This document shows positions 44,410-64,000 of a DNA stretch of 64,000 bases, one piece after another. This DNA comes from Adineta ricciae (lineage: Eukaryota; Rotifera; Eurotatoria; Adinetida; Adinetidae). The notes beneath the pieces are model-generated. The model made no database searches and was not told the DNA's origin. It was given only the letters and a program-made list of their open reading frames with translations. The DNA is taken from contig CAJNOJ010000257.1 of assembly GCA_905250025.1 (NCBI GenBank), forward strand, positions 79,227-143,226, given 5' to 3'. Positions within the stretch are counted from its first letter, which is position 1, and each line of letters begins with the position of its first letter. Made by a program: the position numbers and the translations under genes.

Positions 44410-45715
44410 TGAAATATTTTCAATGCATAAGGATGATGTACACTATGCTGTCGCAAAATATGTCACAATTCAAACTAGGAAGAATATTGTTGACACACGA
44501 CGCTATGAAAATATTGCCTACTGTTTACTCTATTTCTTTCATGAAATAACACAGATGAATTAATCATATAATACTACTTGAATTTTTTCCTACATAAAAC
44601 ATTTGTTGGGCATCAGCACCAATGCGATACGTGCTCGTGATGCACACATACAATTGTATATACGTGAATATTCGTTTCACATTTTGTGAGGATTACGTCG
44701 GCACAATTAAATATTGTATTTCAACTAGTGATGCAACGACAGCGATCGTCGCTTATCGACGGTTCGCCGTAGGTAGGATGAAACGAAGCACCTTTGTTTT
44801 TCTAATTAATTAATTAATTTAACTACTCAAGTAATTCAGAAACATGCAAAAATGAAAGCTATTAAGAAGTTGTTCAGGATGAGAAATTATTGTGCTATTC
44901 ACAATTCCTAGCAAATCACCAATCGAAAATGCTACTCAAATGTAATCGAAATTTTTTTCTGGTTTGATGAGAATCATTAGCTCTATGGAAAGAGAGAGGC
45001 AAAAGCGAGAGTGTGAGTGTCTTCTTTTATTATTCACATCCATACTATCATCCTGCAATAGATATTGTCCAATATGTCGAAATCAGGGATATTAGAATTT
45101 TCCTTTCAATCCGTAAGCATTTTCCTGTGTATATCGTTCGTTATTCATTAGCTTTTTCTCGGCTTTCCTTTTATTTTTCAGAAATAAACAAGACTCTTTT
45201 TCAAAGCTACTTTTTTGCCGTGGTATTTCATTGTTCTCACCAGCAGCCTTTAAAGGTACTCGTTCTTTTTTGTGAAAATCGTTTGGAAAAACTTTTTATA
45301 CAGACTATAATTAGATCATATGTTGTTGCTTGGATCAGCCTTCGAACGAATTCAGTCAGGTGTGTCATTCGCATGCTAATCGATGTTCATGGGAGATTCT
45401 TGACTAAAAATGTTTTTGAGTGAGAGTGTGAATAGATAATAATGCTCTTGTTTTACTCACCCTCACTTTCAAGATGTTACAAAGATGTATGTACTGTTGA
45501 CAAAACTGAAATTTAGCCATATTTAAAATTTGCCTAGTCCAAACAGAAATTTCAATTTAGCCTAAACATATGTATATATATATGAGAATGTGTGCGAAAT
45601 AAAAGAAAAGAATGCATCGATATTTTCATTGGATAATCAATCGTCATCGTTCTGCTTTTAATAACTCATTCATTTCATTGTACGTTATTGTCAGAGGTCA
45701 CAAACATTAACGAAT
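44410..45715. other. Spacer between divergent B-box and F-box genes
   Basis: It includes a 136-codon frame at 45013 that is also open in the second copy, but changes between the copies alter amino acids at about 13 sites, so coding is doubtful. Short AT repeats lie near 45571. Confidence 0.4.
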
Positions 45716-45951
45716 ATGGATGCATCTCATACTCATCTCCTTCATTTACCAGATGAAATATTATTGAATATTTTCAAAAACCTAGGTAATACTTCTGTTC
45801 TTTATTCTTTACTTGGCATTAATAACAAACGACTGGAAAATATCATCCGACATAGATCCTTTTCTAATGAATTGAATATTGCATCGATGACAAAAGATAT
45901 TTCAATAATTCATCCAATACTTGATCGATTTTGTGATTATATAATACCTCA
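45716..45951 (+). CDS. F-box protein, 5' fragment (copy 1)
   Basis: The first 78 codons of the F-box gene (HLLHLPDEILLNIFKNLGNT) up to the junction. The protein sequence is identical to 47228-47463 and to the start of the complete gene. It is cut by an assembly break, not a natural stop. Confidence 0.7.
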
Positions 45952-45952
45952 N
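45952..45952. other. Single-N junction between repeat copies
   Basis: The right side restarts at the equivalent of 44269, inside the B-box gene. Confidence 0.85.
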
Positions 45953-46093
45953 ACATCCTTCACATCTCAAAATCCCAATCGGTTTAAAACAAATTGTGCA
46001 GGATGCTTTTACAGTTGATGGTGGTCTTTCGGAAGTTGTTGCCGACACAGCTGCCATTTGGGTTTCACTTTGAGCTGTTACTTTACTCAACAA
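45953..46093 (-). CDS. B-box protein, 5' fragment (copy 2)
   Basis: About 46 codons identical to the start of the gene at 44409 except one Val to Ala change, ending at the junction before the second zinc ligand pair. Probably the other allele of that gene. Confidence 0.65.
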
Positions 46094-47463
46094 TGAAATA
46101 TTTTCAATGCATAAGGATGATGCACACTATGCTGTCCCAAAATATGTCACAATTCAAACTAGGAAGAATATTGTTGACACACGACGCTATGAAAATATTG
46201 CCTACTGCTTACTCTATTTCTTTCATGAAATATCACAAATGAATTAATCATATAATACTACTTGAATTTTTTCCTACATAGAACATTTGTTGGGCATCAG
46301 CACCAATGCGACACGTGCTCGTGATGCACACATACAATTGTATATACATGAATAGTCGTTTCACATTTTGTGAGAACTACGTCGGCATAATTAAATATTG
46401 TATGTCAACTAGTGATGCAACGAAGCACCTTTGTTGTGCTATTCACAATTCCTAGCAAATCACCAGTCGAAAATGCTACTTAAATGTAATCGAAATTTTT
46501 TTCTGGTTTGATGAGAATCATTATCTCTATGAAAAGAGAGAGGCAAAAGCGAGAGTGTGAGTGTCTTCTTTTATTATTCACATCCATACTATCATCCTGC
46601 AATAGATATTGCCCAATATGTCGAAATCAAGGATTTTAGAATTTTTCCTTCAATCCGTAAGCATTTTCCTGTGTATATCGTTCGTTATTCATTAGCGTTT
46701 TCTCGGCTTTCCTTTTATTTTCCAGAAATAAACAAGACTCTTTATCAAAGCTACTTTTTTACCGTGGTATTTCATTGTACTCACCAGCAGCCTTTAAATG
46801 TACTCGTTCTTTTTCGTGAAAATCGTTTGGAAAAACTTTTTATACAGGTTATAATTAGATCATATGTTGTTGCTTGGATCAGCCTTCAAACGAATTCAGT
46901 CAGGTGTGTCATTCGCATGCTAATCGATGTTCATGGGAGATTCTTGACTAAAAAAGTTTTTGAGTGAGAGTGTGAATAGATAATAATGCTCTTATTTTAC
47001 TTACCCTCACTTTCAAGATGTTACAAAGATGTATGTACTGTTGACAAAACAGAAATTTCAATTTAGCCTAAACATATATATATATATATATATATGAGAA
47101 TGTGTGCGAAATAAAAGAAAAGAATGCATCGATATTTTCATTGGATAATCAATCGTCATCGTTCTGCTTTTAATAATTCATTCATTTCATTGTACATTAT
47201 TGTCCGAGGTCACAAACATTAACGAATATGGATGCATCTCACACTCATCTCCTTCATTTACCAGATGAAATATTATTGAATATTTTCAAAAACCTAGGTA
47301 ATACTTCTGTTCTTTATTCTTTACTTGGCATTAATAACAAACGACTGGAAAATATCATCCGACATAGATCCTTTTCTAATGAATTGAATATTGCATCGAT
47401 GACAAAAGATATTTCAATAATTCATCCAATACTTGATCGATTTTGTGATTATATAATACCTCA
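45953..47463. repeat. Second copy of the B-box/F-box spacer repeat
   Basis: Counterpart of 44269-45951. It has a longer TA microsatellite (about 47076-47094) than the first copy. Confidence 0.8.
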
Positions 47464-49172
47464 NACTCATCTCCTTCATTTACCAGATGAAATATTATTG
47501 AATATTTTCAAAAACCTAGGTAATACTTCTGTTCTTTATTCTTTACTTGGCATTAATAACAAACGACTGGAAAATATCATCCGACATAGATCCTTTTCTA
47601 ATGAATTGAATATTGCATCGATGACAAAAGATATTTCAATAATTCATCCAATACTTGATCGATTTTGTGATTATATAATACCTCAAATTTCTGTCAATAT
47701 CAAGTGTCTCATTCTTGAGCCACGGTATATGGAAGGTGTTTTGTTTGCCATTCATTATCCGAATTTAAGCGAATTGAAAATTGTACACTATGACCACGAT
47801 CAAATGTTAACTTCTTACATAAGTAGTCAAATAATTACAATTTGGACCTAGATAATGTAATGTATGTCTTTATTTAGATAATTTATCGTTTCGACATATT
47901 TTAAAACAACAAATTACAAAACTTGACTTGATGTACAACTGTAAAACGATTACACCAAGATCACTGAAACTTATTGCGAAATCAGTTCATGCACAAATTT
48001 TGATTGACGGCGAAAGGTTACAACATTTGAGTGTTACTTCATCTACAGGTTTGTTATATGCAAGCTTAGTACTTCGTTATTTACCACCGACCATCTTTAC
48101 TTCTTCAACACTTACTTATCTACGTATTAATGTACAAACTTTCACTGATCTTCTCTATCTACTTGATGGTCGATTCAAACAATTGCATACTTTAATTGCC
48201 CACATTTATTCTATGGAAACCGATTCATCAGTTGTATATAACACAGTAAATATTTTTTTTCAAATGAATAAATTAAATACTTTGAGAAATACATGAATCT
48301 CAATAAAATATTCTTCTATTTTATAGGATGATTTACCTAATCTGAAGTGTTTTTCATTTGTATATTATTATGAAAGTCCACAATATTATAACGTTTTACG
48401 TCATCTTTGTCGTATGAAAAACTTGGAAAAACTTACGTTATATATACGCATCGTCTTCGAAACTACATTCATAGATCCCATTGATCTCATCAATCAATTT
48501 TTAATGAATGCATCCGAACTTCAGTCTTTTAAGTTTTATCTTGGTACAAGAAGTAAAAGAACTGATTTAATTCATTATTTATCTGAGAACGATATTAAAC
48601 AAAATTATATGAAAAACGTCAAATGTCAAGAGATATCAAATTTCGTTCAGTATAATGGTGATTCAGGTATCAACCATATGTTCACACTTCCTTTTCAATT
48701 CGAATATCTTCAAGATGTTGGAAATATATTTCCAGATATTCTATTCAGCAATGTCGTTGATTTATGTGTATGTGATAATACTCCATTTGAACATGAATTT
48801 TTTCAACGAATAAGTCGAAGTTTTCCAAAGCTTCGAGCACTTACTGTAGTCAACACGAAACCATGGTTATATAAAACGGGAGTACCATCTGATAATATGA
48901 TTCCATCATATGAAATAGTCGAGTATCCGCATCTAAGTTTTCTTGATATTTCAACAGTAAGTAATTATTATATCGAAGAATTTCTCAATGAAACTAAAAT
49001 ACGTTTATCATGTCTACTTGAATTAAAAATCGATTATGAAAGATTAAGAGTAATTACCAAAGATTTTACACGAGAAAGCACACGACATAATTGTGCAAAT
49101 GTGCAACGATTAATTATTTATAGAGCAATTGTTGGTTCGAAAGATTATTATGATTATTTTCCTTTATTGTAA
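47228..49172 (+). CDS. F-box protein with leucine-rich region; 5' end duplicated in the sequence
   Basis: ATG at 47228. The 221 bases 47243-47463 are repeated exactly at 47465-47685 across a single N, so the real first exon is one copy of this, running to about 47822. A 55 bp intron, then exon 47878-48245, an 81 bp intron, and exon 48327-49172. The F-box is at the N-terminus (LHLPDEILLNIFKNLGNTSVLYSLLGINN), predicted to bind Skp1. The remainder has irregular leucine-rich repeats (IKCLILEPRYMEGVLF, LTYLRINVQTFTDLLYLLDG, LSCLLELKIDYERLRVITKDF). The end YDYFPLL-stop fits other members of this bdelloid family. With the duplicate removed the frame is intact. The substrate is unknown. Confidence 0.8.
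47464..47464. other. Single-N junction with 221 bp exact overlap
   Basis: Bases 47243-47463 and 47465-47685 are the same. An un-merged contig overlap explains this better than a real duplication inside an F-box. Confidence 0.85.
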
Positions 49173-49308: not shown

Positions 49309-49309
49309 N
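49309..49309. other. Single-N junction ending the P450 fragment
   Basis: The P450 frame is lost on its left side. The 136 bases between it and the F-box stop do not continue the P450. Confidence 0.8.
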
Positions 49310-49703
49310 CTTCCCATCCAAGACTCAATTGGGAAGAAATGTCCATCATTGCGGGAAACATATCCCGAATTGCTTGTGGGCCGAAAGCAGGCATCAAGAT
49401 TTTGTGTGCAAGTTTCCAGTTGGGTTCGGATGTATGTGCAGTGAACAAGCCATCACCAGCTGGAAATCTTAATTCTTCGAGGACTGGATCAACGTTTTTA
49501 TCAAATTTCGTTTCATCGCATAAAAAATTGGTAAGTTCTTGATTACATACGATGACGATGTTCTGATCGAGAATTGTCAATCGATAGATATCACCATACA
49601 ATTGGTGTAATCTTTTTAATGAGTTCAGAGTTTGAACTGGGTCCAATTCTTTCAAATTTCCAATAATCCACTTTTTCGGCGGTTGTGGAATCGCTTTTGC
49701 CAT
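49310..49703 (-). CDS. CYP102/BM3-like P450, N-terminal fragment of a second gene
   Basis: About 131 codons from ATG 49703. They match the first 131 residues of the complete gene at 57431 (about 70-75 per cent identical by eye), including IPQP, WIIGNLKELDP, YGDIYRL, CDETKFDK, GDGLFTA and SEPNWKLAHKILMPAFGPQA. The frame breaks at the unknown base 49309 just after QLSLGWE, so the rest of the gene is missing from this assembly or has been deleted. It starts 518 bp from the oppositely oriented nuclear receptor 1. Divergence from the complete gene shows an older paralogue, not an allele. Confidence 0.75.
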
Positions 49704-50221
49704 GGTAATCGACTTGAAAATGCTTTGGAATTCTGAACGATATCGAAGCCCTTTTATTAATCACCATTTTTTTCTGTTCTGTTAGTACAAGTCACCTCAC
49801 TGAAATACAGGTACGTCTTCAGAGGACGTCCGCAGAATACGTGTAAAAATAGAACGTAATTGAATTGCCTGATGAATCATCATCATGTGAAGAATAACGC
49901 GTATGCAATATAGAAAGCAGATTATTGCGGCATCGATAGTATGTAATTCAAAAATATTTCAATTTGCCAGTCAGGATTATTTGATTTAATTATATCTACC
50001 GATGATTTGTGCTTTGTTTTAAATCGATGACAGCACACGCTATCCTCTTTCTCGTCGTTTTCACCACCCTTATGCGTAAAATATGACAGAACGAAAAAGA
50101 AAAAATAATAGTCAACGTGCACTACCATTCATTTGAAGGGCTGATAAAAAAAACGACAACTACTATTTTTCTTTTATACATTCGTAAAACAAAATCATCA
50201 ATATCTAATCTTTAAAAGCAA
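49704..50221. promoter_or_regulatory. Head-to-head intergenic region, P450 fragment and nuclear receptor 1
   Basis: 518 bp between two divergent start codons. It contains GGACGTCC-GCA-GAATACG (49824-49841) and a TCACCT (AGGTGA on the minus strand, 49792-49797), both with counterparts in 57432-58113. A shared control region is inferred. Confidence 0.5.
49824..49841. promoter_or_regulatory. Palindromic GGACGTCC-N3-GAATACG element, copy 1
   Basis: GGACGTCC is its own reverse complement. With the same 3-base gap to GAATACG it also occurs at 57633-57650. Here it lies 121 bp upstream of the P450 start. Confidence 0.45.
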
Positions 50222-51805
50222 ATGGCTAACTTGAATTCGAACAGACATGTTATTGTTATCGCACCAAACGAGAAAACATTTGAAAAAATCATGTCTATTG
50301 TCCAATGTGCAGACAATTGTGGTGAAACAAAACATGTAAGTGGTATTAAATTAGATGGACATAAGATATAAGTTATATTATTATAGATCGCTGAATCTAC
50401 CAATGAAGATAAAACAAAGGGATCGCATAAACGACGTAAAACCGATTTGACCTGCGTTGTATGTAATGATAAATGTTCTGGATATAATTTCAATGTCATT
50501 TCTTGTGAATCATGTAAATCATTTTTTTATCGAAATTCCACACAAAATCTAGTAAGACATTATTTCTATTCCCTCTGTTTCATAATTATGTTCTCCTTGT
50601 TTAATAGAAGGATCTCAAATGTTTAACAGATACGAAGAATTGTATTGTAAATTTTCAAAATAGACGTAAAATGTGCAGATACTGTCGACTTCAGAAATGT
50701 TTATCAGTTGGTACGTAGGTTATTTGATTATGACTAGAATCTATAGCAAAGAAATTTGATGGTATAGGTATGAAATGGATGTCTTCGACAAGTGATAAGT
50801 TAACTAGACAACAACAAGTAGAAGAAAATCGACGATTTACAGAGAATAGAACAAATAGTCTCATACAAAGAAGCTCTGTCAACTTTTCTCCGCATGAAAA
50901 TGATGACGAAACTTTAGAAACAGTGCGTAGAATTTGGACGATAGAAAAACGAAAATAGATCTACTATTTTGAAGGAACCAGCTATCGAACAACTTCTCGC
51001 TTCTCAATCACCATGTCGACCACTTTCCCAAGAACATTTTCTCACAAGCGACGATCACAATCGTCTCAATTTGATAAAATCTTGTTACGAAAAAGCTTTT
51101 CAACATGCAACAGTCAAACGCGACATATCTGTTTTCGATCGTACAATTGACCGACGTTGGGGTTTGCTCTATTCCGCTTCACTTTTCTATGATATGGGTA
51201 TGAAAATCATAACATTCAGTCGAAGTATTCCGGAATTCGAATCACTCAATGAACAAGATCGATTTATACTAATTAAATATAATTCCCCTATGGTGTTTCA
51301 CATGCGTCTCTCTTTAATCTTTGATCCAAATAAAGATCTTGTTATTGAACCGGAAGCTGAAAGCGAAGAACACGCCATGATTTGTGAACAAATATCACAA
51401 TACTGTTATGGAAGTCAATTAAGTTTATTATCAAATGAACTTCTCCGTTCGATTAAGAACATTTCTGATGATGATCCGATGGTTTTAAAACTAATGATAA
51501 TCATACTATTGTTTGGGAAATCTGTCGCAGCTGAAGATATTATCATAAATGATCAACCAATTCTTAGAAATGGCAAACAAGTCTATGAAGCACAGTTGAT
51601 CTATACAAATCTTCTCTTTCGTTATATGATCGAAAAATATTCGGATTATTATCAAGCAGTACGTCAATATTCACAGTTAATACAAAAAACGATCCAAATG
51701 CAACTTTTAACACGAACATTTCTACAATTTCTACACGAACAACTAATTAATACAGGAGATGATGAAGTTAACCCGATTATTAAATCAATTTTACTCATAA
51801 GTTAA
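50222..51805 (+). CDS. Nuclear receptor 1, DAF-12/DHR96 (NR1J)-like
   Basis: Exons 50222-50335, 50387-50551, 50608-50710, 50768-50922 and 50975-51805 give 455 residues in one frame. The DNA-binding domain has two zinc modules: CVVCNDKCSGYNFNVISCESC and C-x6-C-x10-C-x2-C ending RRKMCRYCRLQKC. The P-box is CESCKSFF; ESCKA is typical of the DAF-12/DHR96/NHR-8 group, and here the Ala is Ser. A hinge rich in Asn and Arg precedes a ligand-binding domain (about 180-455) with the signature helix region FESLNEQDRFILIKYN. The C-terminal helix that carries the AF-2 activation motif is not obvious (DDEVNPIIKSILLIS). It is expected to bind DNA in the nucleus and respond to a lipophilic ligand. It lies divergently beside the P450 fragment. 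Confidence 0.85.
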
Positions 51806-52430
51806 ATAATTTGTTGTTCATTCATGACAATGGGTTAAGACTTGCATAAAGTTGTAAATACAAAATTAGGGAAGAAGACATATCGTGACGTACTCTTGAT
51901 AGGATGGAAATAAACCATTCTTGGCCAATATATATATATTATATGGCATGTTATAATCAGCTTAGTTATTCAAATTTTTCATGTCACAATAAATTTCTAT
52001 ATGTAACGTATTCGAAAAGTTTTATCGCGTGTTTCGTCTATTAGATCTAAGCAGGAGCTGATTGTAGCACTGACACATTGAGGACTCTACGTAGAATTTC
52101 ATATTTATATGTTTAATGCACTATGGAAATTTCTCATTTCTTCACGATGAAATTTGCATTATTGCACAGCGGTTTTCAATCTTTCAATGCTTTGTGTTTA
52201 GAGAGTCTTCATGAAAACACCACTCGAATCCGTTATCGAAAAAAATTGACTTTCAAAATAGAATAAGTAGAATGAAAAAGTAACTCCGAACCCCCGCAGT
52301 GTTTGTGATTTCTCAGGAACGATGTCACAATACCATTATTCTGAATATCCTTCTCAGGACGGATTTGTGCTTGACTAAAAGGTCGAGAGTTGTTTAAAAT
52401 ATCTCGAAAGTAATTAATACCAGAAAGATA
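51806..52430. other. Intergenic region, nothing recognised
   Basis: 3' flank of nuclear receptor 1, with a short TA run near 51933-51945. Confidence 0.4.
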
Positions 52431-54075
52431 CTATTGAAATGAAAATCGGATGACTGTGTGATCAAAATGGAACATATGTCTGTGCTGTTCAATACGACAG
52501 TTACGAAAAGTAATTTGAAGAAAATGTGTATTAACAACAATGAACGTACCAAAGCCAATCCTTCGTTTAAAAACAATATGTTTCAACTGAAAACAGTTTC
52601 GATGTGTTACATTTCTTGTAAAATCTTTTGTTACATATGTCAATAGTTTGTATGCGATACACAGCCTGTTCAAACAAGAAAATCGTGTAGTCGAGTCACG
52701 TAGAAACTGTTCCACATAGTCCATATGAACAAGGGAATAGTCAAGTTCGACAAGATGCAAAAAGTGAATAATCGACAATGTATTTCCATGACGTTCTTTT
52801 TGTTTTGTAACGTTACTATGTCTCATACAACGAAGCAGTAGAAATGAATTGAAAATTTTAGCAAAGAATCCGTGTTCGAATGGATGATCCATGTCTCTCA
52901 AATGTAGGACACGAATATTGATGAATCTAACGTGCTTATTAATAATATTGAAATGAAACGTATGTAAATGTAATAATCGACCGACAGTAAAAATTGTTCA
53001 AATAGCTTCCATCAATGAAAGAATCTCTTAAACTAATCCGAATAGATCAAATAAGCTCTTCCAAATATAACATTCGGCGAAGAAAAGGTAACATGATGTT
53101 ATCGAATTCAGTTGTTGCAAAACATACAGATAAGAAAAACATTTTAATCGATATGGATTCGTCTAAACAAAAAAAAACATACATAATCATTTCATCTGTT
53201 CATTGATACAAGCAATCAAAAAGACCGTTCTATCTTTACTTGTTTCAATATAACTCGAGAATAAATCAAATTGAACTGAAGTAACAATACATAAGAAAGA
53301 TGCACCATTGCGCCACAAATGACTGAAACATCTCTCATCCATTTCACTGGTATTTTGAAGAACTGTATGTAAAGATGACGACAGTAGTTTTTTAATTACC
53401 ATGCTGTTCATGATTTTCACTATGAACAAACAACATATTGTAGATGGCATTCTAGTCAATAACGATTGGTAAAATAGAGAATAATCGTCACTATATAAAT
53501 CCAATTGTTTCAGATTTGTGCGCGGTACAAAAGTACCATTGTAAATGTAAGTTATTAATTTGCCGTGCAATTTACTCCGAACTTTGTCACGGATCGTCAA
53601 AACAAGATCTGATATTTGCTGTAAAACAGGAAGAAATCAAGATTTCTCTAAAAACATACAGTTTAATTGTTTGATGTCGATAGAAGAATCACGAACCATC
53701 GAAAATGTGGCATGCCATACGAATTCTGAAACCGTTAATAACAAATTTTCGTAAATTAGGATACTTGGTAACAGAAAGAACTTGTGACAAGATAGTCGCT
53801 TGCAGAGTAAGAGACCCGACGTTGTCAGAAATTCGAGGAAGTATATCGACACAAAATTGATCAAGTACTGCATTAGCTTTTGAATGTATCAGTCGTAGCG
53901 GTTCAATTGACGTCAGATTAACAAGTCGAGTAAAACCAAGACCACATAGAACTTGACCGAGATTCTTATGAACACCAATCAACGAATTTAAAACATCGAA
54001 ATTGTTATGTTTATTCAAAATATAAAGCAAAATTTCATCAGATAAATTGACAATGTTCACAATTAACTTGTCCAT
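52431..54075 (-). pseudogene. F-box/LRR gene, probably decayed
   Basis: Three pieces of one F-box gene lie in order on the minus strand: an F-box start (54075-53689, VNLSDEILLYILNKHNNFDVL), a middle part (about 53603-53187, QISDLVLTIRDKVRSKL, NLKQLDLYSDDYSLF) after a CTGTTTTACAG acceptor, and a C-terminal part (52901-52431, MDHPFEHGFFAKIF, LVELDYSLVHMDYVEQFL, VTKDFTRN) that is like the end of the gene at 47228. The middle part stops and the tail is out of frame compared with its relatives (no FPLL end). I read it as a pseudogene; a gene with unusual introns is the alternative. It separates the two P450/receptor pairs. Confidence 0.5.
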
Positions 54076-54311
54076 CTTTATTCTCTTTCAGACGATTCGA
54101 AACAGCTACATGTATATATGTGTTCCTTGTTTATATGCTATCCATATATTGTAGGCAGAATTACAATTTTGCCTAGGCAAATTACGAATTTACCTGAAAT
54201 TCAATTTTACCTACAGCATATATATTGTATACATACACGCCGAGAAGGATTAATGTTTATTCATATTTTCAAATTTAGAGCAGATTAATGAAAGAAGCAT
54301 TGAACACAATT

Positions 54312-57300
54312 TTATGCAAAAACATCAACACTATACCGATCCAATGACATATTCTCTAATATTTTTCCTGCTGCCTGTTCATCACATTGTTTCATTTCTT
54401 CAATGATCTTCACAAAACATGTTTTCACTGAAGCACCCAACTTTCTTGCACTACCACATGTATAAAACCTTGCTCCATCATCATACAACTTCGCGATTTC
54501 TTTTCGATCTTCCCAAACCAGATCTTGAACATATTTCTTTCCATCGATTATCTCACGAGAGAAAACACTTCTCACTTCAACTGCACCCACTTTTGCCCAT
54601 TTCTCCAACTCATCAGCATACAAGAAATCCTCTCTTGTTCGACAACCATAGTACAGAACTGCTCGTCCAACTTCTCTTCCACATACCAACTGAGCTGCTC
54701 TCTCTTGGATAAATCCTCGAAATGGTGCAATGCCTGTTCCTGCTGCCATCATCACGATCGGTACTCGAGTATCTTCAGGTGGATGAAATCGAACATTACT
54801 CGCTCGAATACAACAGTTGATCTTGTCTGATTCTTTCAGATTCGCCAAATAGTTCGATGCCACACCAAAATATTGTCCAACTCCACTCAACGATGGAGTG
54901 TTGATCACATCAATGGTCAATGTCACAACTTGTGCATTCCACAGAGGTGAAGATGAAATACTGTACTGACGAATGCGAAGAGCAGGCAACATTCGAAGAT
55001 ATTGTGCAAAAGACAGTTCACATGATGGATACAATTCGAGAATATCCAACACACTGACACGTTTCTCCAGAATCTCTTTCTCATACGAATCTCCAGCAAG
55101 ATTTCGAAGAGTGATTTGTTCTTTCTCATTGTGACAAACATCAGCAAGAATTTCGATCTGTCGTTTGCTGATTGGTTGAGCTAGTTCGACATAACCACTC
55201 AAGATGTCGAATGCACTGATGGGATAGTTAGTTGGAAAGAATGTGTTCGTTGATGATGCAATCTTCACATGAGTGTCACTAGACAGGTTGAATCGTTTGA
55301 GAACACGAGAGACGACTTCGATTGGATTCGTGGGTAAAACAGCGAGATAATCACCAGTTCGATAAGTTTGTCCGGTAGGCAGTTGAATCTCGAGATGTCG
55401 TTTCATCGGTCCGATTTCATTCGCTTCGACTAAACATTCGTTTTTCATCACAATGCCGAAGTCGGTCATCTGTCCCAGATTTCTCTTCGTATTCACAATT
55501 TCGATGGAAAGCTTTTCATCACTGATGACATTACGATTGTCGGTATGTTTTTGCAATAATGTTCGAAAGAGATCTTCTTTCCAGCATTCAAATGCACCGA
55601 AGAAGTCACCTGCAGCATCACCCGCACCTCGATCGATGATTCGTGTGCCACCAGTACTTGCAATCATCTGATCGATATGAGCTGGAATCTTGTGATATGT
55701 GTCCACCCAGTCACGATGACCAGCTCCAAAAACGGCATAATTGATGGGTAAATCGGGTTTGGTTTCGAGATATGCAACGAATTGTTTGGCATTTTCACAG
55801 GGTTGTCCTTCATATGAAGCAGTGATAATGATAACAGGTCGATCGGTGGGAAGATGTCCAACAGCAGAGTCGAGAGTGGACACACTTGCATTGTAACCAT
55901 AGAGAGATGCTTCGGATGCCAGTGTTTCTGCAAAGGATTGACAAGAGCCAGAATTACTACCAAAGAGAACACACATTGGTCGGAGATCTTCTCGATTTGA
56001 TTTTGTTTCTGGCGCTTTCTCTGATTTCTTTGTTGTTGTTGTTGTTGTTGATGATGAGTGGAGTGCGAATCCGATCTGTTGTCGGGGTCGAACGCGCATT
56101 TTGAAACCCTCGGGTTTGATAGTTAATGTTTGTTTGATGCGAAGATCGTAAGCAGGATCGACGAATTCGAGATGAAAATGTTTGAGAATGAGTGCGAGAG
56201 CGAGAAGACTTTCTTGCCATGCGAAAGGTCGACCAATACAAGCACGTTGACCGTTACCAAATGGTTTCCATGAGTTGGGTGGAAGTTTCTCAAATCCACC
56301 ATTTAACATGCGCTCAGGTCGAAATTCTTCAGGTTGATCCCAAACTTTCGGATCACGATGCAGCTGTGGTAAAAGAATGGATATCGTATCATTCTTATGG
56401 ACTTCATAACCGCCAGGAAGTATAATATCGCCCACCTTAGATGCGACATTAAATCCAGGTGCCGTGGGCTGTAAGCGAAGTGTCTCTTTCAGTATCGCAT
56501 CGATGTATTTCAGTTGACCTAATACATCAATTGTAATTTCACTGAATTGATCGATTTCTGCTTGTGCCTTTTGTAAGACATGAGGATTTTTCAGAAGATA
56601 ATAGAGAGTAAATGAGAGTAGTCCAGATGTTGTTTCATGTCCGGCAACCAAGAAAGTGATAATCTGATAGCGAATATTTTCATCAGATAGCTGATAGCCA
56701 GTGTCAGGATCTTTGCCATTGATCATTCGATTGAGTAGGTCATTGACATCATTTGGATGTTTTCGTCGTTCTTTGACAATATCATCACACAGTTGATGAA
56801 GATATGCAGTATCTTTATGATAACGGCGTGTACTTTTGACCATCATTTTGTTTACAAAAGAAGGTCGTTGACTTCGTTTGCCACTTTCAACAAGAACATT
56901 AGCCATCGATTTAACAAAACGATTTATAGTCGTTTGATAAAAAGTATTGAATCGGTAATTAAAAGCACACAAAGCAATGGTATCCAATGTGAGGCGAGTT
57001 AAATTATCACAAACATCAATTTCTTCACCAGCAAATCGTTCCCATCGAAGAATCAATTGTGAAGAAATGTCCATCATTGCGGGAAACATATCCCGAATTG
57101 CTTGTGGGCCGAAAGCAGGCATCAAGATTTTGTGTGCAAGTTTCCAATTAGGTTCCGATGTCGATGCAGTGAAAAGTCCATCACCGACTGAATTTCTTAA
57201 TTCTTGAAGAGCAAAATCAACGTGCTTGTCGAATTTTGTTTCGTCGCACAAGAAATTGATAATCTCTTGAGTAGATACGACAACAAGTGTTTTGTCGAAT

Positions 57301-57431
57301 ATGTTCAATCGATAGATATCACCGTACAACTTTTGTAGCCGAATAAACGAATTCAAAGTGTGATCAGGATCCAATTCTTTCAAATTACCGATTATAAATG
57401 TTTTTTCAGGTTGTGGAATTGGTTTGCTCAT
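54312..57431 (-). CDS. Self-sufficient cytochrome P450-reductase fusion, CYP102 (P450 BM3)/CYP505 type
   Basis: One intronless frame of 1,039 residues, close to the 1,049 of P450 BM3. The soluble P450 domain (1 to about 455) has no membrane anchor. It has the I-helix oxygen motif AGHETTS (263-269), K-helix ExxR (ETLR, 316-319), PERF-like RPERM and the heme loop FGNGQRACIG with ligand Cys398. A Thr/Ser/Lys linker (460-480, from a GTT repeat) follows. The flavodoxin FMN domain (about 486-635: FGSNSGSCQSFAE, TASYEGQP, VFGAGHRDW) and the FAD/NADPH reductase domain (about 660-1039: RQYSISSSP, AAGTGIAPFRGFIQER, YYGCRTREDFLY, YTCGSAR) complete it, ending YSVDVFA. It should hydroxylate fatty acids or similar lipids with NADPH in the cytosol. 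Missing introns and family range (bacteria, fungi) point to horizontal transfer. It is head-to-head with nuclear receptor 2. Confidence 0.95.
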   Translation of the reverse strand: MSKPIPQPEKTFIIGNLKELDPDHTLNSFIRLQKLYGDIYRLNIFDKTLVVVSTQEIINFLCDETKFDKHVDFALQELRNSVGDGLFTASTSEPNWKLAHKILMPAFGPQAIRDMFPAMMDISSQLILRWERFAGEEIDVCDNLTRLTLDTIALCAFNYRFNTFYQTTINRFVKSMANVLVESGKRSQRPSFVNKMMVKSTRRYHKDTAYLHQLCDDIVKERRKHPNDVNDLLNRMINGKDPDTGYQLSDENIRYQIITFLVAGHETTSGLLSFTLYYLLKNPHVLQKAQAEIDQFSEITIDVLGQLKYIDAILKETLRLQPTAPGFNVASKVGDIILPGGYEVHKNDTISILLPQLHRDPKVWDQPEEFRPERMLNGGFEKLPPNSWKPFGNGQRACIGRPFAWQESLLALALILKHFHLEFVDPAYDLRIKQTLTIKPEGFKMRVRPRQQIGFALHSSSTTTTTTKKSEKAPETKSNREDLRPMCVLFGSNSGSCQSFAETLASEASLYGYNASVSTLDSAVGHLPTDRPVIIITASYEGQPCENAKQFVAYLETKPDLPINYAVFGAGHRDWVDTYHKIPAHIDQMIASTGGTRIIDRGAGDAAGDFFGAFECWKEDLFRTLLQKHTDNRNVISDEKLSIEIVNTKRNLGQMTDFGIVMKNECLVEANEIGPMKRHLEIQLPTGQTYRTGDYLAVLPTNPIEVVSRVLKRFNLSSDTHVKIASSTNTFFPTNYPISAFDILSGYVELAQPISKRQIEILADVCHNEKEQITLRNLAGDSYEKEILEKRVSVLDILELYPSCELSFAQYLRMLPALRIRQYSISSSPLWNAQVVTLTIDVINTPSLSGVGQYFGVASNYLANLKESDKINCCIRASNVRFHPPEDTRVPIVMMAAGTGIAPFRGFIQERAAQLVCGREVGRAVLYYGCRTREDFLYADELEKWAKVGAVEVRSVFSREIIDGKKYVQDLVWEDRKEIAKLYDDGARFYTCGSARKLGASVKTCFVKIIEEMKQCDEQAAGKILENMSLDRYSVDVFA

Positions 57432-58113
57432 GATTATTGTTTACCGAATAATAGTTATGTTGAAATAACAGAAAATGCTACCGACTTTGTTAGGTTTGTA
57501 CTTTGTTATTCGAGCACTTTTTCGTTTCTCAATCATTCACGAGTAAAATCGTTACCTTTTATTCAATACTTCTTTCCGTTCGATGCGTATGGGTGATATG
57601 GGTTGTTTTGACATAAAATGTATGTATGCAGCGGACGTCCTCGGAATACGTTCGAAAAGTGCGCGTGCGTTCGTAGGAAACGAAACTCAGGTGAATTATT
57701 CGAAAAGCCTTGAATCAGTTAGTCATACAAACACGCGTACTTGATAAAACTTATGCGAGTTATATATCAAACATCTTTTCAAATGATATTATTTGCTTTG
57801 ATACGGTCGTTAGAATGTTTTTTTTTTCGTGTAAATAAACAAGAAGTTTGATCAGAAACGGTTGTCATGCATTCACTTCGTTTCAACATTTTATTGATTA
57901 CGCACGTTGCAACAGAACGAAAAGTGCGTAGTTTTCTTTTCTTCTATCTGTAGTAGTTAACCATCGATAACATGTGATTCAATGCTACTCAAATACGCAC
58001 ACGTAGTTACTCTTGTTGTGGTAGTTTTTCTTCGTTGAGTCAATGTTTAGCTTTTTACTTTATGATATCTTATAGATAGGGACAAACAAACTTATCCTCG
58101 GCTTGAAAAGTAG
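57432..58113. promoter_or_regulatory. Head-to-head intergenic region, P450-reductase and nuclear receptor 2
   Basis: 682 bp between two divergent start codons. It contains GGACGTCC-TCG-GAATACG (57633-57650) and AGGTGA (57689-57694), both also present in 49704-50221. The rest of the two regions does not align by eye, so the shared element stands out. Confidence 0.5.
57633..57650. promoter_or_regulatory. Palindromic GGACGTCC-N3-GAATACG element, copy 2
   Basis: Same arrangement as at 49824-49841, here 202 bp upstream of the P450 start. Confidence 0.45.
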
Positions 58114-59667
58114 ATGGCAAATGGCAATCCTTCAATTAAAAATAGTCAGCAGACTAATGTAATCGTTGTCACAGAAGATGATGAAGCATTTCAAACGATT
58201 ATTTCTCTTGTTAAAAAATCCAACAATGGTAACACATCAAACAATGTGGTAAAACGAGTTGTAAGCGTTGTCAAATTATATATGCATAGTATTAATTCTG
58301 AAATTATATTTAATACAGATCCCCGAATCAAATGTTGATCACACACCGATTTCATACAAACGTCGTAAAGCTGATTTGACTTGTATGGTATGTAATGGTC
58401 GATGTTCGGGATACAATTTCAGTGTTATTTCCTGTGAATCATGTAAAGCTTTCTTTTATCGAAATGCGTCTGAAAACTTGGTAAATAATCAATTATTGTG
58501 ATAATTCGCATGCTTTTGCTATCTCTACTCGATAGAATGTTCTAAAATGCTTAACTGGCACTAATGATTGCAACATAGAATGCAACAACAAACGTAAAAT
58601 GTGCAGACGTTGTCGACTTCAGAAGTGTTTGTCAGTTGGTATGAAATGTGCGTCGAACGCAGATCAACGATTGAATAAACAACGACATATGGAAGAGAAC
58701 CGGCGATTAGCTACTATGCAATCGAGCGTGACAAGTATTTCTCTCGAGGATATTGATGAATCGACAGATGAATATGCAACAGTGTTGATATCGCAAAACG
58801 TAAACAAACTTGTCGAGTATTTCGAAATCTTTTCTCTCATCACATTCGTTTCTATCATTTTAGAAGTCAACTGTGGAACAATCTCATACTACTCACCAGT
58901 ACTTCCTCACCTTCGATGATTTTAATCGTATTAATTCACTTACACGTTCCTATGAAAGAGCTTTCCGATTCTCAACAGTCAGATATGATGCATCTGTGTT
59001 CGATCGTATAACTGACCGACGTACGGGTTTACTTCATACAACATCGATCTTCTACGACATGGGTATGCAATTGATTACATTTATTCGAAGTATTCCAGAA
59101 TTCGAATCACTCAATGAACAAGATCGATTTATCTTGGTGAAATATAACGCTCCTCTGACACTTTACGTTCGTTTATGTCTACATTATGACCTACAAAAGG
59201 AGCTCGTGATAGTTTCAGAAGTTGAAAATGAAGAACATGCGGTGGTTTGCAAAAAATTGTGTTTGTATTCTTTTGGAAATCAGATAGAATCGTTATCGAC
59301 TGAGCTATTTCGATCGATCAAGAAGATTACTGGAGACGATCCAGTGATTTTTCAACTGATGTTGGTTATATTAACATTTACTAAAAGTGTCACAGCTGAA
59401 GATCTTATCATGAATGATCAACCGGTTCTTGTGAATAGCAAACAAGTGTATGAGATACAATCCACCTATGCCAATCTTCTCTTTCGCTATATGCTTCAAA
59501 AATATTCAACGTATAATCAAGCAGCGTGTCAGTATTCAATATTGATACAAAAGATACTTCAAATACAAGTCTTAGTACGAGCATATCAAGAGTTTTTACA
59601 CGAACAACTAGTTGACAGCGGGGATGATGAAATAAATCCGATTATAAAATCAATATTACGTCTATAA
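58114..59667 (+). CDS. Nuclear receptor 2, DAF-12/DHR96 (NR1J)-like
   Basis: Exons 58114-58260, 58319-58480, 58536-58799 and 58864-59667 give 458 residues. The DNA-binding domain is complete: CMVCNGRCSGYNFSVISCESC, P-box CESCKAFF as in DAF-12 and DHR96, then C-x6-C-x10-C-x2-C ending RKMCRRCRLQKCLSVGMKC. The ligand-binding domain (about 190-458) has FESLNEQDRFILVKYN and shares long stretches with nuclear receptor 1. Relatives bind sterols, fatty acids or foreign compounds and switch on detoxification genes. One intron found in receptor 1 (50711-50767) is absent here. The gene starts 682 bp from the complete P450-reductase and points away from it. Confidence 0.88.
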
Positions 59668-62035
59668 GCGAAAATATTTCTTTGTAATTCATTCACCACG
59701 AAACATTTCGAGGACAACGAAATCGTGGTGAATGTTTTAGTCTTGAATAGTTTATTTTTAATAAAAAACCTACGAAAAAAAAGGCATTATTGTTTGTTCA
59801 CCTGCTCTAAAGAGAGCGCCGGAGATTTTATCCAAAGTGAACTCAGCTCAACAAAGTAATGTTGATGATTGTACCATCGAGATACCTCGCGCTGTCGTTT
59901 ATTTCGATAGTTCTCGTCGAAAAAGTATTCCCGACAAAGTGTATAAATAAAACGTCGTTGAATGTGTAGAATACGTCATTGCGTCTTAAGTCTTGGGCGC
60001 CAGATTTACCTGTACAAATCTCAAAGTACTTCTCGGAATATTCTCAGTTGATGGAACAACTTGGCGCCGGTATCGCATATGACTATACGTTTTGCTATTT
60101 TCAATGAACTGTGAAAATATCGGTCAATACACGCAAATACAATTGACCAACACGATGTTGTCCGAACCGAAAAAGAGAGAAAAAACTTGATTTTAGATAC
60201 GATAATATTGTATTATACAACTGTTGTTGTTACTGTACTGATTTGATGGATTAGCACACTGTTTTATGACATAATTTGTTTTAGAACCTAGAAAAGATGC
60301 ACCTCATGTGTAGTAAAACAAATTCCGAGACACTATTTGAAAGAAAGTATAAAAGATAAAATAGCAAAGTTACTGTGATTTTATAGACACTTTTCAAATA
60401 TGTTGTTCTCATCAATTGAAAAGGTAATCTATTTTGATCTGTAGAGGATTAAAAAAATGTTAACTGATAGAAATCTCTTCTAATCAAATAATCAATAATT
60501 TTGTCTAATGAAACGGTCTGACATGGAAAACGATTTACAGGACTAAAACTATCGCCTTTCTCTTCTTTTTTCGGCAGTCTTGTGCGAATGAATGACTTTC
60601 ATGTTCGTTGAAATTGTACAAACTGATCGAAAACTAAAAGAAATTTGTTTGTATATAGGTTAGTTAGAGAACAATCGCGGATTTAGAGAGCACGAATTTG
60701 GGAGGTGAATCATCTAGGAAATTAAAACATAATTTTTCTCCAGAGAACAGATTATCTAATTAGTTTTATTCAAAAGACTTTCACACAATCACTCTTCAAG
60801 CTTTTCTCAAAATGAAAACTAATCTATTTTCAAATTTGAGATACCAACAATATAGTCGGAGTAGTGTATTGCTATATACTAAATCTCCTATGGAATTGTA
60901 GATTTCACAAGAGAACTGTTTAGATTTACGAATCACACAACGTTTCCTCTAAGCGTAGTTTCGAAACTTTTTCTAATCTTCGTAGAACATCAAGAAATCT
61001 CGCTTAGATCTTATGACAAGGAAAATCCTTTCAAAACAGATGAATGCAGATTCTGTGCCCATTCTCAAAGACCTGAGATAAAAGCTTGGAAAACTTTTCT
61101 ATAATTTGAAATTGCTTCTTCGACAGTTCTTTTCTGAAATTGTTCGATAATACAATCCATAGCTTGGAAAAACAAAATTTGTCTTATATCTAAAGCGCTG
61201 GTTTGATTTCCAATCGTAAGCATGGACCTATACACAGCAAAAAATCAGCGATTGACAATGTTTTACATCGCTGATAAACCGGCATTATAATAGAATATTT
61301 GCAATGCTCCACACGACATAAATTCTGTTAGTTCCATTCGAGGTGATCAAAACTTTCGAGGAAGTCTTCACGAGAAATGTAAGCATTAGCTGTTCGTCAA
61401 GTATGGAAACTGTTCTTGATCATTCTTCACCATCAAATGCGATAAACATTCAAGTTTGATTTAATACCAAACAATACTTATACTTTCTCAGACGTCTTTC
61501 ATTTGTACAGCATTTGTTTGAGATTTGGCATTTCAATTAGATTCTTCTACGTCACTTCCATCAATCAGTGATTTATTATCCAGTTACATCTCATTTCACA
61601 CCCTCATTCTCATCCTCGAGAACAATGAGCCATGAGACATCTACTCAACACAAACAAAGTATTGTTTCCACTATGAAAAAAGGAGTATTGCACCTTTATA
61701 ACCAACGAATTGAATAACGAAATATTTCAATAAAAGCTTTTTCGTTTCAACTAGACGTATTGACATTTCATAAAGTGACAAACTGAATCTTAAGTAACCG
61801 ATGAAGAGAAAAATATCATAGCATCTGACAATGGTTTCAATGGGTTTTTTTTTTCTTTTCTAAAAGTGCAATCATTTTTACTTTTTTCTTCTTCCCACTA
61901 TTCAAGAAAGAGAACTAAAAACGATTGTGAATGTGCATAACTGTTACCATTAGTAAAAACAAACACTCTACCAACAGGCTATTGTTATTGTGAGAAGTTT
62001 TAGAAATTTTCCATTGACGAACAGTGCTGATAATC
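59668..62035. other. Long intergenic region, nothing recognised
   Basis: 2.4 kb of AT-rich sequence without a gene-like frame on either strand. It separates nuclear receptor 2 from the globin gene. Confidence 0.5.
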
Positions 62036-62656
62036 ATGGGTTGCTCAGACTCGAAAAGTGCAGATGCGTTACAACCAGCCAGTGATGAGTTGGATAACAT
62101 GAAGGCGCGACTCACACAACGCCTACTTAATCGCGACGCAACTAAAACACATAGTAAAAATGCCTTTGCCGCGTAAGTTAGGTTTAGTTTGTATTTACTT
62201 GATAAACCAATATGAGTTCTGACTCTGCTTCGTCTCTAGTGTTTTGAACAAATATCCGGATGCGAAGAAAGTCTTTCGCGTCCCTGAAACTACCAGTGCC
62301 GATACACAACTTGTCGATACCAAAGAAGTGAAAGCAGCTAGTGATAAGATTTTGAGCCACTATATGGATCTAGCGAAGACGGCGGACAGTAATCTTGACG
62401 ATGCTATTCAAAAGAAAGCTGAAGAACTCAAGAAGCAAGGCGTCAAAGCCGAACATGTTAAGGTAAAAACTCTCCTCTGATCATTCAGTGATTCATTGCA
62501 GTGTATTTTTCGCTGTAGTGTTATGGAGAAGCTCTTGCGCAAAATGCCGTCAAAGATACGGACAATAAGCTGACTGCTGAAGAAGAGAAAGCCTGGAAGA
62601 ATTCGGTCAATAACATAACAGCCAAACTTACTGCTGCTATGAACAAACTACCCTAA
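62036..62656 (+). CDS. Globin-fold protein, acylation-type N-terminus, heme-binding histidines missing
   Basis: Exons 62036-62172, 62240-62462 and 62519-62656 give 165 residues. Both introns sit at the classical animal globin positions: the first splits the codon five residues before the YP of the B-C corner (B12.2), the second falls after VKAEHVK, aligned to VDPENFR of beta-globin (G7.0). The CD1 Phe is kept (KYPDAKKVF, Phe58) and helix E aligns as VKAASDKILSHYMD. The distal E7 position is Ala79 where His is usual. The F-helix reads KKAEELKKQG, so F8 is Glu108 or Leu109 and no His is near. MGCSDS at the start fits myristoylation at Gly2 and palmitoylation at Cys3, as in globin X-type membrane globins. 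Normal heme binding looks unlikely. A membrane-bound signalling or scaffold role is inference. Confidence 0.8.
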
Positions 62657-63306
62657 TCATCTTGCGTCACTATCGTCAGCAACAAGCAAAAGACACGTCT
62701 AATTCTTTTTGTATCAAAATGAAATGTATTACTAGATTTTTCTTTCCGACAACAAGATAAAAACCAGAAAAGGATGAAATATGCACCGATGAATTAGATT
62801 TTGTAATAAGAATTAAATATTTGAAATTTCGACGAAGATATCGGTCTAGCCGATTGTACTGATATAGAGATTAGATGCAAAATAAATATGCATACTCTGC
62901 CGTCGTCTTCATCTTCAAAACACGAAGTATATGGATAGAAATCCTCTCTCAAGGTCATTCTCATGTTGCATAACGTAGGAAGCGACCAAAAATCTCAGTG
63001 GAAATTTGCAATATACTTCGTGCTTTGCAAAACCATGTTAATATCTTATAGGAGTGAGTTAGTGGTACAGATATCTTTATCTACTATGCTTTCGTATGTT
63101 TACTCACATTTACGCTTACCCAATAGCTGGGTACTTCTTGTCAGCACGTATGTGACAATAGCAAGCCACACAAGATCCATGAGTCTTCAAAGCTTTATGC
63201 AATGTGTAGTTATGATTAATATTTCTTTTCAACAGTTGCAGACTACTAGCTACAATGGTGCATTCAAACCTATTACATGAACAACAACAGAACAAAAGCA
63301 ACTTTT
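62657..63306. other. Intergenic region, nothing recognised
   Basis: 3' flank of the globin gene with AATAAA-type signals (near 62880). The 105-codon frame at 62963 has no family resemblance. Confidence 0.4.
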
Positions 63307-63849
63307 TTAATCAAGAAGCGCGGCATTTTGCAATGCTAGTTCTTCCAAAGCGTTACATATGTTACGAAAATATTCATTCAACTGATTGTGAATTGCAACA
63401 TTATGTCTAAATGTCTCGCGAAGACTACGAATGTACTTCTGACCAGTCAACAACAATTCTTCATTTAGCTTTTCAAAGATACATATGCCCACAGTTTGTC
63501 CATTGAGTTGTTGTTGATAGAAATCTATCCAATCTTGAACATAAAATTGCTTATCAGCGTGACAAAAAACTGTCAAATTCCGAAGATTATTCGACATATC
63601 GAAACCATCTCTCAGCCATTGATACAGATTATCTTCATATGCATATAATGTATGGCCCGGATGAGGATTATTCCTAATGTAAGTTCGACAGTTTTGACTT
63701 TGAGGAAAGACTTGTATGAATGCCAATAGATTAGCATGAGGTATTGGTATAATAGGGAATGCGGTTGACGTTTCACAAAGTAGCAGAATGCATTCTGTAG
63801 CGTGTTGAAAGAGATTGCCGTCGAATTGAATATCGGAAATAGTATACAT
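63307..63849 (-). CDS. Uncharacterised protein, possibly the last exon of a larger gene
   Basis: A frame of 180 codons with balanced composition, mixed hydrophobic and charged helices and no low-complexity runs (YAYEDNLYQWLRDGFDM, YVQDWIDFYQQQLNG, LRETFRHNVAIHNQLNEYF). No signal peptide or membrane helix is seen, and no family is recognised. An acceptor-like TTTATTGTAG lies directly before the ATG and a GTAAGC donor-like site about 45 bases further upstream, so an upstream exon is possible; the upstream frames are blocked by stops, which leaves the ATG at 63849 as the simplest start. The C-terminus (LEELALQNAALLD) is probably helical. Confidence 0.5.
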   Translation of the reverse strand: MYTISDIQFDGNLFQHATECILLLCETSTAFPIIPIPHANLLAFIQVFPQSQNCRTYIRNNPHPGHTLYAYEDNLYQWLRDGFDMSNNLRNLTVFCHADKQFYVQDWIDFYQQQLNGQTVGICIFEKLNEELLLTGQKYIRSLRETFRHNVAIHNQLNEYFRNICNALEELALQNAALLD

Positions 63850-64000
63850 CTACAATAAAATATGATAAAAATAGGATCTAAGCGTGCTTACATGATTTAT
63901 TTTCAAAGTTTTATATAGTCCTCAAAGTTCTTTTAGAATACGCTGGAGTCTGGCGGCTTTATTGAACATATCTTTAGCTGATGTTGTATCTTTTACGGCG
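63850..64000. other. Window edge
   Basis: A minus-strand stretch reads FNKAARLQRILKEL near 63925-63970 and then stops; it may belong to an upstream exon or another gene outside the window. Confidence 0.2.

Follow-up and report, generated by a model that had tools for sequence, protein, structure and literature searches.

P450–receptor modules in the window

The stretch of 64,000 nt analyzed here (the window; C257:79227-143226 in an assembly of 130 Mb and 1033 contigs) belongs to the bdelloid rotifer Adineta ricciae and contains a gene for a self-sufficient cytochrome P450 (P450) fused to its reductase, lying head-to-head with a gene for an animal nuclear receptor, together with a second, incomplete module of the same kind to its left. 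This is a real and conserved gene pair that leads to a testable regulatory prediction, while the claimed duplication and the model of activation, both read earlier from the sequence of the window (the original prediction), need correction. What is new here is a 32-bp near-palindrome that all three pairs, two in the window and one on contig C499, have between their P450 and receptor genes. The genes of the two modules are:

54312-57431, minus strand: self-sufficient P450-reductase fusion of the CYP102/CYP505 type (1039 amino acids; single intronless open frame, stop codon included)
58114-59667, plus strand: NR2, an HR96-like nuclear receptor (454 amino acids; four modelled exons, 58114-58248, 58319-58480, 58536-58799 and 58864-59667)
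49310-49703, minus strand: left P450 stub (N-terminal 131 codons, ending at the N at 49309)
50222-51805, plus strand: NR1, a receptor paralogous to NR2 (455 amino acids; five modelled exons, 50222-50335, 50387-50551, 50608-50710, 50768-50922 and 50975-51805)

The right P450 carries the P450, flavodoxin, FAD and NAD domains in this order on one chain, each above its Pfam cut-off, and is therefore the complete BM3-like fusion that had been predicted. Its whole length can be aligned with BM3-type fusions of solved structure. It is 45-50% identical to named rows from fungi and bacteria, at a query coverage of 90-100%, and conserves in the alignment the heme-cysteine motif FGNGQRACIG and the I-helix motif AGHETT. 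The positions of BM3 R47 and Y51, the anchor of the fatty-acid carboxylate in BM3, are aligned with K and V, respectively. The enzyme is probably a fatty-acid or lipophile hydroxylase.

Both receptor frames, as modelled, are intact and contain a zf-C4 domain above the cut-off (E 1.2e-20 and 2.7e-16), with the CESCK(A/S)FF P-box of the original prediction as CESCKSFF in NR1 and CESCKAFF in NR2; the first R after the FF of the P-box is replaced by Y in all three A. ricciae copies. A nuclear-receptor ligand-binding domain with a VDR/LXR-like fold is also present. The last intron of NR2 is one among several possible joins, and that of NR1 was picked out of seven frame-keeping ones.

The minus-strand P450 faces the plus-strand receptor across 518 bp in the left module (from stub to NR1) and 682 bp in the right one, and the few hundred bases anticipated between the members, as well as their orientation and their left-right paralogy, were thus confirmed. 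The occurrence of the module twice within 10 kb holds only in part: the right pair is complete, and from the left P450 there is only the 131-codon stub, without heme cysteine and without reductase. "Twice" therefore amounts to one complete pair and one with a truncated P450.

Searches of the whole assembly gave at least 44 matches for the P450 (44 of 155 candidates scored), at least 104 for the receptor (93 of 236 scored) and at least 182 for zf-C4 at E<=0.001 (150 of 359 scored). Among the matches scored, the complete fusion is found on C257, C499 (92% amino acid identity) and C314 (73%), with a second copy on C314 that has two TGA stops and is missing the stretch matching about 56238-57377. 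Contig C499 contains a complete homologous pair in the same head-to-head order, aligned with window positions 54309-61146 in four pieces of 86-92% nucleotide identity, and the translation of its receptor equals, by eye, the annotated A. ricciae protein P0121 except at the exon-1 boundary. The next nearest P450 and receptor among the matches listed, also read by eye, are about 20 kb apart (C232).

Two side observations concern these contigs. The C314 fusion (C314:60357-63461) is 90% identical to the Rotaria sordida protein P0014, unexpectedly close for a protein from another genus, but has 73% identity with the paralogous P450 of the window. On C499, two long frames on the minus strand (1020 and 622 amino acids; C499:44485-49324) lie a few kb downstream of the P450 and, by their sequence, look like a non-LTR (lacking long terminal repeats) retrotransposon.

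The 32-bp intergenic element

Hardly any of the left intergenic region can be aligned with the right and C499 ones. The exception is a single block, the near-palindrome, a counterpart of which in another species would be expected to have the form TACGTATTC-NGN-GGACGTCC-NCN-GAATACGTA. The three copies are:

49812-49843: left copy, TACGTCTTCAGAGGACGTCCGCAGAATACGTG; 24/32 positions symmetric; 109 bp from the stub start codon and 378 bp from the receptor start
57621-57652: right copy, TATGTATGCAGCGGACGTCCTCGGAATACGTT; 22/32 positions symmetric; 190 bp from the P450 start codon and 461 bp from the receptor start
C499: third copy, TACGTATTCAGCGGACGTCCTCAGAATACGTA; 28/32 positions symmetric

A 31-base pattern of the element, with up to three mismatches, occurs at three sites in the 130 Mb, all of them in P450-receptor pairs, and the control pattern at none; a 19-base half with up to two mismatches identified four further sites, and its control pattern two. 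Specificity for the pair fits local control. BLAST gave no match to a comparable element upstream of the two C314 P450 copies (1500 and 1460 bp), nor was the 25-base core of the element matched in prokaryote genome contigs. The best 32-mer match was of 28 positions between the left and C499 regions (mean 20.6 and maximum 25 in 200 shuffles), and of 26 between left and right (maximum 24 in 200 shuffles). Conservation of the element is well supported.

Assembly, ancestry and selection

Two further positions are relevant to the left module:

49309: single N at which the left P450 is lost, probably a contig join; a 2018 A. ricciae assembly, not necessarily the present one, involved scaffolding steps
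54309: end point of the collinearity with C499 and C572, 3 bp past the P450 stop; breakpoint of a rearrangement (see below)

An assembly artefact, in which a false join placed the two modules next to each other and their tandem order is not real, would be in line with the seven single-base N and the 38-base N run in the window, with the end of C499/C572 collinearity 3 bp past the P450 stop, and with a 222-bp tandem repeat (221/222) at 47238-47681, whose boundary falls 4 bases ahead of the N at 47464 and which is probably an unmerged contig overlap. The module age (dS about 1, see below) would suit a whole-genome-duplication copy too. Nevertheless, there is not a single N in 49310-64000, so one gap-free stretch holds the two receptors together with the complete P450 and the stub. 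Moreover, the stub and the right P450 share 86 identical bp (49333-49418 and 57061-57146) where C499 is not identical, suggesting a recent gene conversion between the two, and the right pair is independent of the left one. An artefact is, for these reasons, unlikely. Beyond the P450 stop, C499 and C572 continue to match each other collinearly (89.6% over 1.8 kb) but the window departs from them, which puts the left module at a rearrangement observed in C257 alone.

No remainder of the left P450 appeared among the 44 scored matches. The sole loose P450 piece, at the edge of C572, comprises the final 95 residues; it shares 97% identity with the right P450, and the sequence that follows it runs collinear with C499. 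We also considered that the left P450 was left unassembled through its identity with the right copy, and regard this as less likely because the identical tract is no longer than 86 bp and differences between the copies reappear ahead of the N; the codon blocks before the tract are about 68-80% identical. A family of genes that look F-box/LRR-like (leucine-rich repeat) by their sequence surrounds the left module (45665-46018, 47177-49172 and 52431-54087). On the right flank, an open reading frame at 63307-63849, searched as a marker of wider synteny with A. vaga, gave one protein, from A. ricciae.

The best A. vaga matches, I4U23_004846 for the P450 (81%) and I4U23_004847 for the receptor (69% over 57% of the query), lie on a contig of 18,146,847 bases and bear locus tags that directly follow one another, from which we read that the two genes are adjacent. 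The linkage is therefore probably older than the species, and the expectation of a linked pair in other bdelloids is partly borne out by these tags; within A. ricciae, the pair also occurs on the second contig, C499. In the ligand-binding-domain tree, NR1 falls outside the group of A. vaga 004847 and NR2 (92/89, below the starred level), indicating that the duplication probably predates the A. vaga/A. ricciae split; the stub tree, over 98 columns, gives no resolved branching.

A 73-row P450 tree, which is a quick tree with a midpoint root and a long-branch warning from the program, places all named bdelloid rows in one clade, mixed with metagenome rows. This clade joins Violaceomyces and three chytrid fungi, and not the named bacteria, with a Rhizoctonia row on the bacterial side. 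A fungal donor of the P450 thus appears likely, and a bacterial donor was set aside on the same grouping. The original prediction is supported in that a fusion P450 of fungal or bacterial kind lies beside an animal receptor. Three stretches of viral contigs matched a pattern for P450 relatives, and none was confirmed.

Synonymous divergence (dS) and the nonsynonymous to synonymous ratio (omega) were obtained from pairwise counts. Between left and right, dS is 0.90 for the stub (131 codons, including the 86-bp identical tract) and 1.13 for the receptor (448 codons), so both members of the module parted at a similar depth; between C257 and C499 it is 0.24 for the P450 and 0.11 for the receptor. 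Omega of the P450 is 0.16 (C257/C499) and 0.12 (C257/C314), and that of the stub 0.16. Within the receptor, values for NR1/NR2 and C257/C499 are, respectively, 0.12 and 0.24 in the DNA-binding domain, 0.25 and 0.20 in the ligand-binding domain, and 0.42 and 0.34 in the hinge. The enzyme and the DNA- and ligand-binding domains are under purifying selection.

Local control of the pair and known systems

Receptors of the HR96/PXR/VDR type sense lipophilic compounds and control P450 genes. We tentatively propose that the pair is controlled locally, through the element and by the neighbouring receptor, with an uncertain sign. The acquired P450 and the HR96/VDR-like receptor would form a head-to-head pair sharing one intergenic control region, where the 32-bp near-palindrome near the P450 start would be read by a DNA-binding dimer, the neighbouring receptor being the simplest candidate. 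The level of a lipophilic ligand would set the output of the P450, and perhaps also that of the receptor itself, and the element would be part of a local sensor-and-enzyme switch, as its restriction to such pairs in this genome suggests. Because the receptor is devoid of the glutamate of activation function 2 (AF-2), control would more likely proceed by ligand-released repression, possibly resembling that of CYP102A3 by FatR (see below), or via a partner, than by classical coactivator recruitment, and the classical ligand-driven activation of the original prediction is doubtful. Which protein binds the element, which ligand and substrate are involved and in which direction control works are inferences.

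Several observations weigh against this proposal. The receptor ends in NPIIKSIL, without the AF-2 glutamate of the PLL(I/V/L/R)E(I/L)F present in four non-bdelloid rows (insect, mollusc, nematode and nemertean). No AGGTCA-type half-site is apparent in the element by eye, and its dyad symmetry, evident in the C499 copy but weak in the two of the window, was equalled in 0/1000 shuffles for C499, 61/1000 for the left copy and 352/1000 for the right one. The C257 and C499 copies are homologues, so there are only two independent copies of the element; as they match at 28/32, no better than their surroundings (89%), the case for the element rests on the old left/right comparison. Omega reaches 0.29 (NR1/NR2) and 0.30 (C257/C499) over the whole receptor, and 0.58 and 1.1, respectively, in its N-terminus (first 64 codons for C257/C499). 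Among the matches listed, no receptor lies on C314, the contig of two other fusion copies.

Annotations from other bdelloids point the same way, and would suit a receptor that is decaying or is now a DNA-binding-free cofactor, its place beside the P450 being a relic. The A. vaga receptor (P0122) is annotated with its DNA-binding domain cut after CES, leaving a partial zf-C4 (20.3 versus a cut-off of 21.1 bits); the A. steineri receptors P0123 and P0127 have the ligand-binding domain directly after exon 1, P0127 bearing in addition the retroelement-type C-terminal Pfam domain PF17917; and the metagenome rows P0125 (contig of only 1492 bp) and P0126 begin after the DNA-binding domain. However, the A. 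vaga and A. steineri structures are automatic annotations considered at the protein level, and the domain is intact, and constrained as described above, in the three A. ricciae copies, which makes decay quite improbable. As to the missing glutamate, all 22 C-termini read from HR96-like receptors of this genome end in a helix 12 of the PLMQAVLH/PLMKSLL type, also without it; its absence may characterize an expanded family of bdelloid receptors.

The linkage might also be that of a passenger, a P450 that landed by a receptor, with the element as an ordinary P450 promoter element bound by an unrelated factor. We regard this as a real possibility, since the large zf-C4 family would make one chance adjacency unremarkable, and the element is in both modules nearer to the P450 start than to the receptor start. 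Nonetheless, the two C314 P450 copies are without the element, purifying selection has acted on what remains of the two members in either module, and every other receptor-P450 distance read by eye among the matches listed is of at least 20 kb. The pairing apparently preceded the A. vaga/A. ricciae split.

Bdelloids carry many foreign genes, and how these come under host control is a general question, which becomes testable at one small locus because the foreign enzyme and the host sensor paired here have one short candidate control element. Titles and abstract openings of the papers found on bdelloid or rotifer P450s, nuclear receptors, horizontal gene transfer and head-to-head receptor/P450 arrangements contained no account of the pair. 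A pathogen study of A. ricciae mentions a P450-domain gene that flanks the induced clusters of polyketide synthase-nonribosomal peptide synthetase (PKS-NRPS) genes (PMC11258130).

The A. ricciae fusion has in common with the self-sufficient P450s of the CYP102/CYP505 families the full domain order and the catalytic motifs, and differs from them by belonging to a bdelloid clade with an animal regulatory neighbour and by a C-terminal Phe instead of the Trp of BM3. Likewise, the A. ricciae receptors share the C4 domain and the VDR/LXR-like ligand-binding fold with the HR96/DAF-12/VDR-PXR (NR1) group, and NR2 also the CESCKA P-box of the insect and mollusc HR96 rows. Unlike the members of that group, the A. 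ricciae receptor has no AF-2 glutamate and its gene is directly linked to a P450, which is an acquired fusion rather than an animal CYP.

The closest parallel is bacterial. The TetR-family repressors FatR of Bacillus subtilis (on CYP102A3) and Bm3R1 of B. megaterium (on CYP102) act on their BM3-type P450 genes from a palindromic promoter operator and are displaced by fatty acids; the FatR operator is an 18-bp palindrome, with one site genome-wide by ChIP-on-chip (PMC3814354). That an animal receptor could have recreated this logic for a horizontally acquired P450, as an operon-style repressor that is released by ligand because it has lost AF-2 and that acts at a single locus on the operator of its own pair, is a speculative and rather unlikely analogy. 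The single FatR site resembles the A. ricciae element, found, from sequence searches, only at this gene pair. In contrast, FatR and Bm3R1 belong to the TetR family and the A. ricciae neighbour is a nuclear receptor, and FatR shares one operon with its P450 and binds an 18-bp palindrome, whereas in A. ricciae the genes are divergent and the candidate element spans 32 bp.

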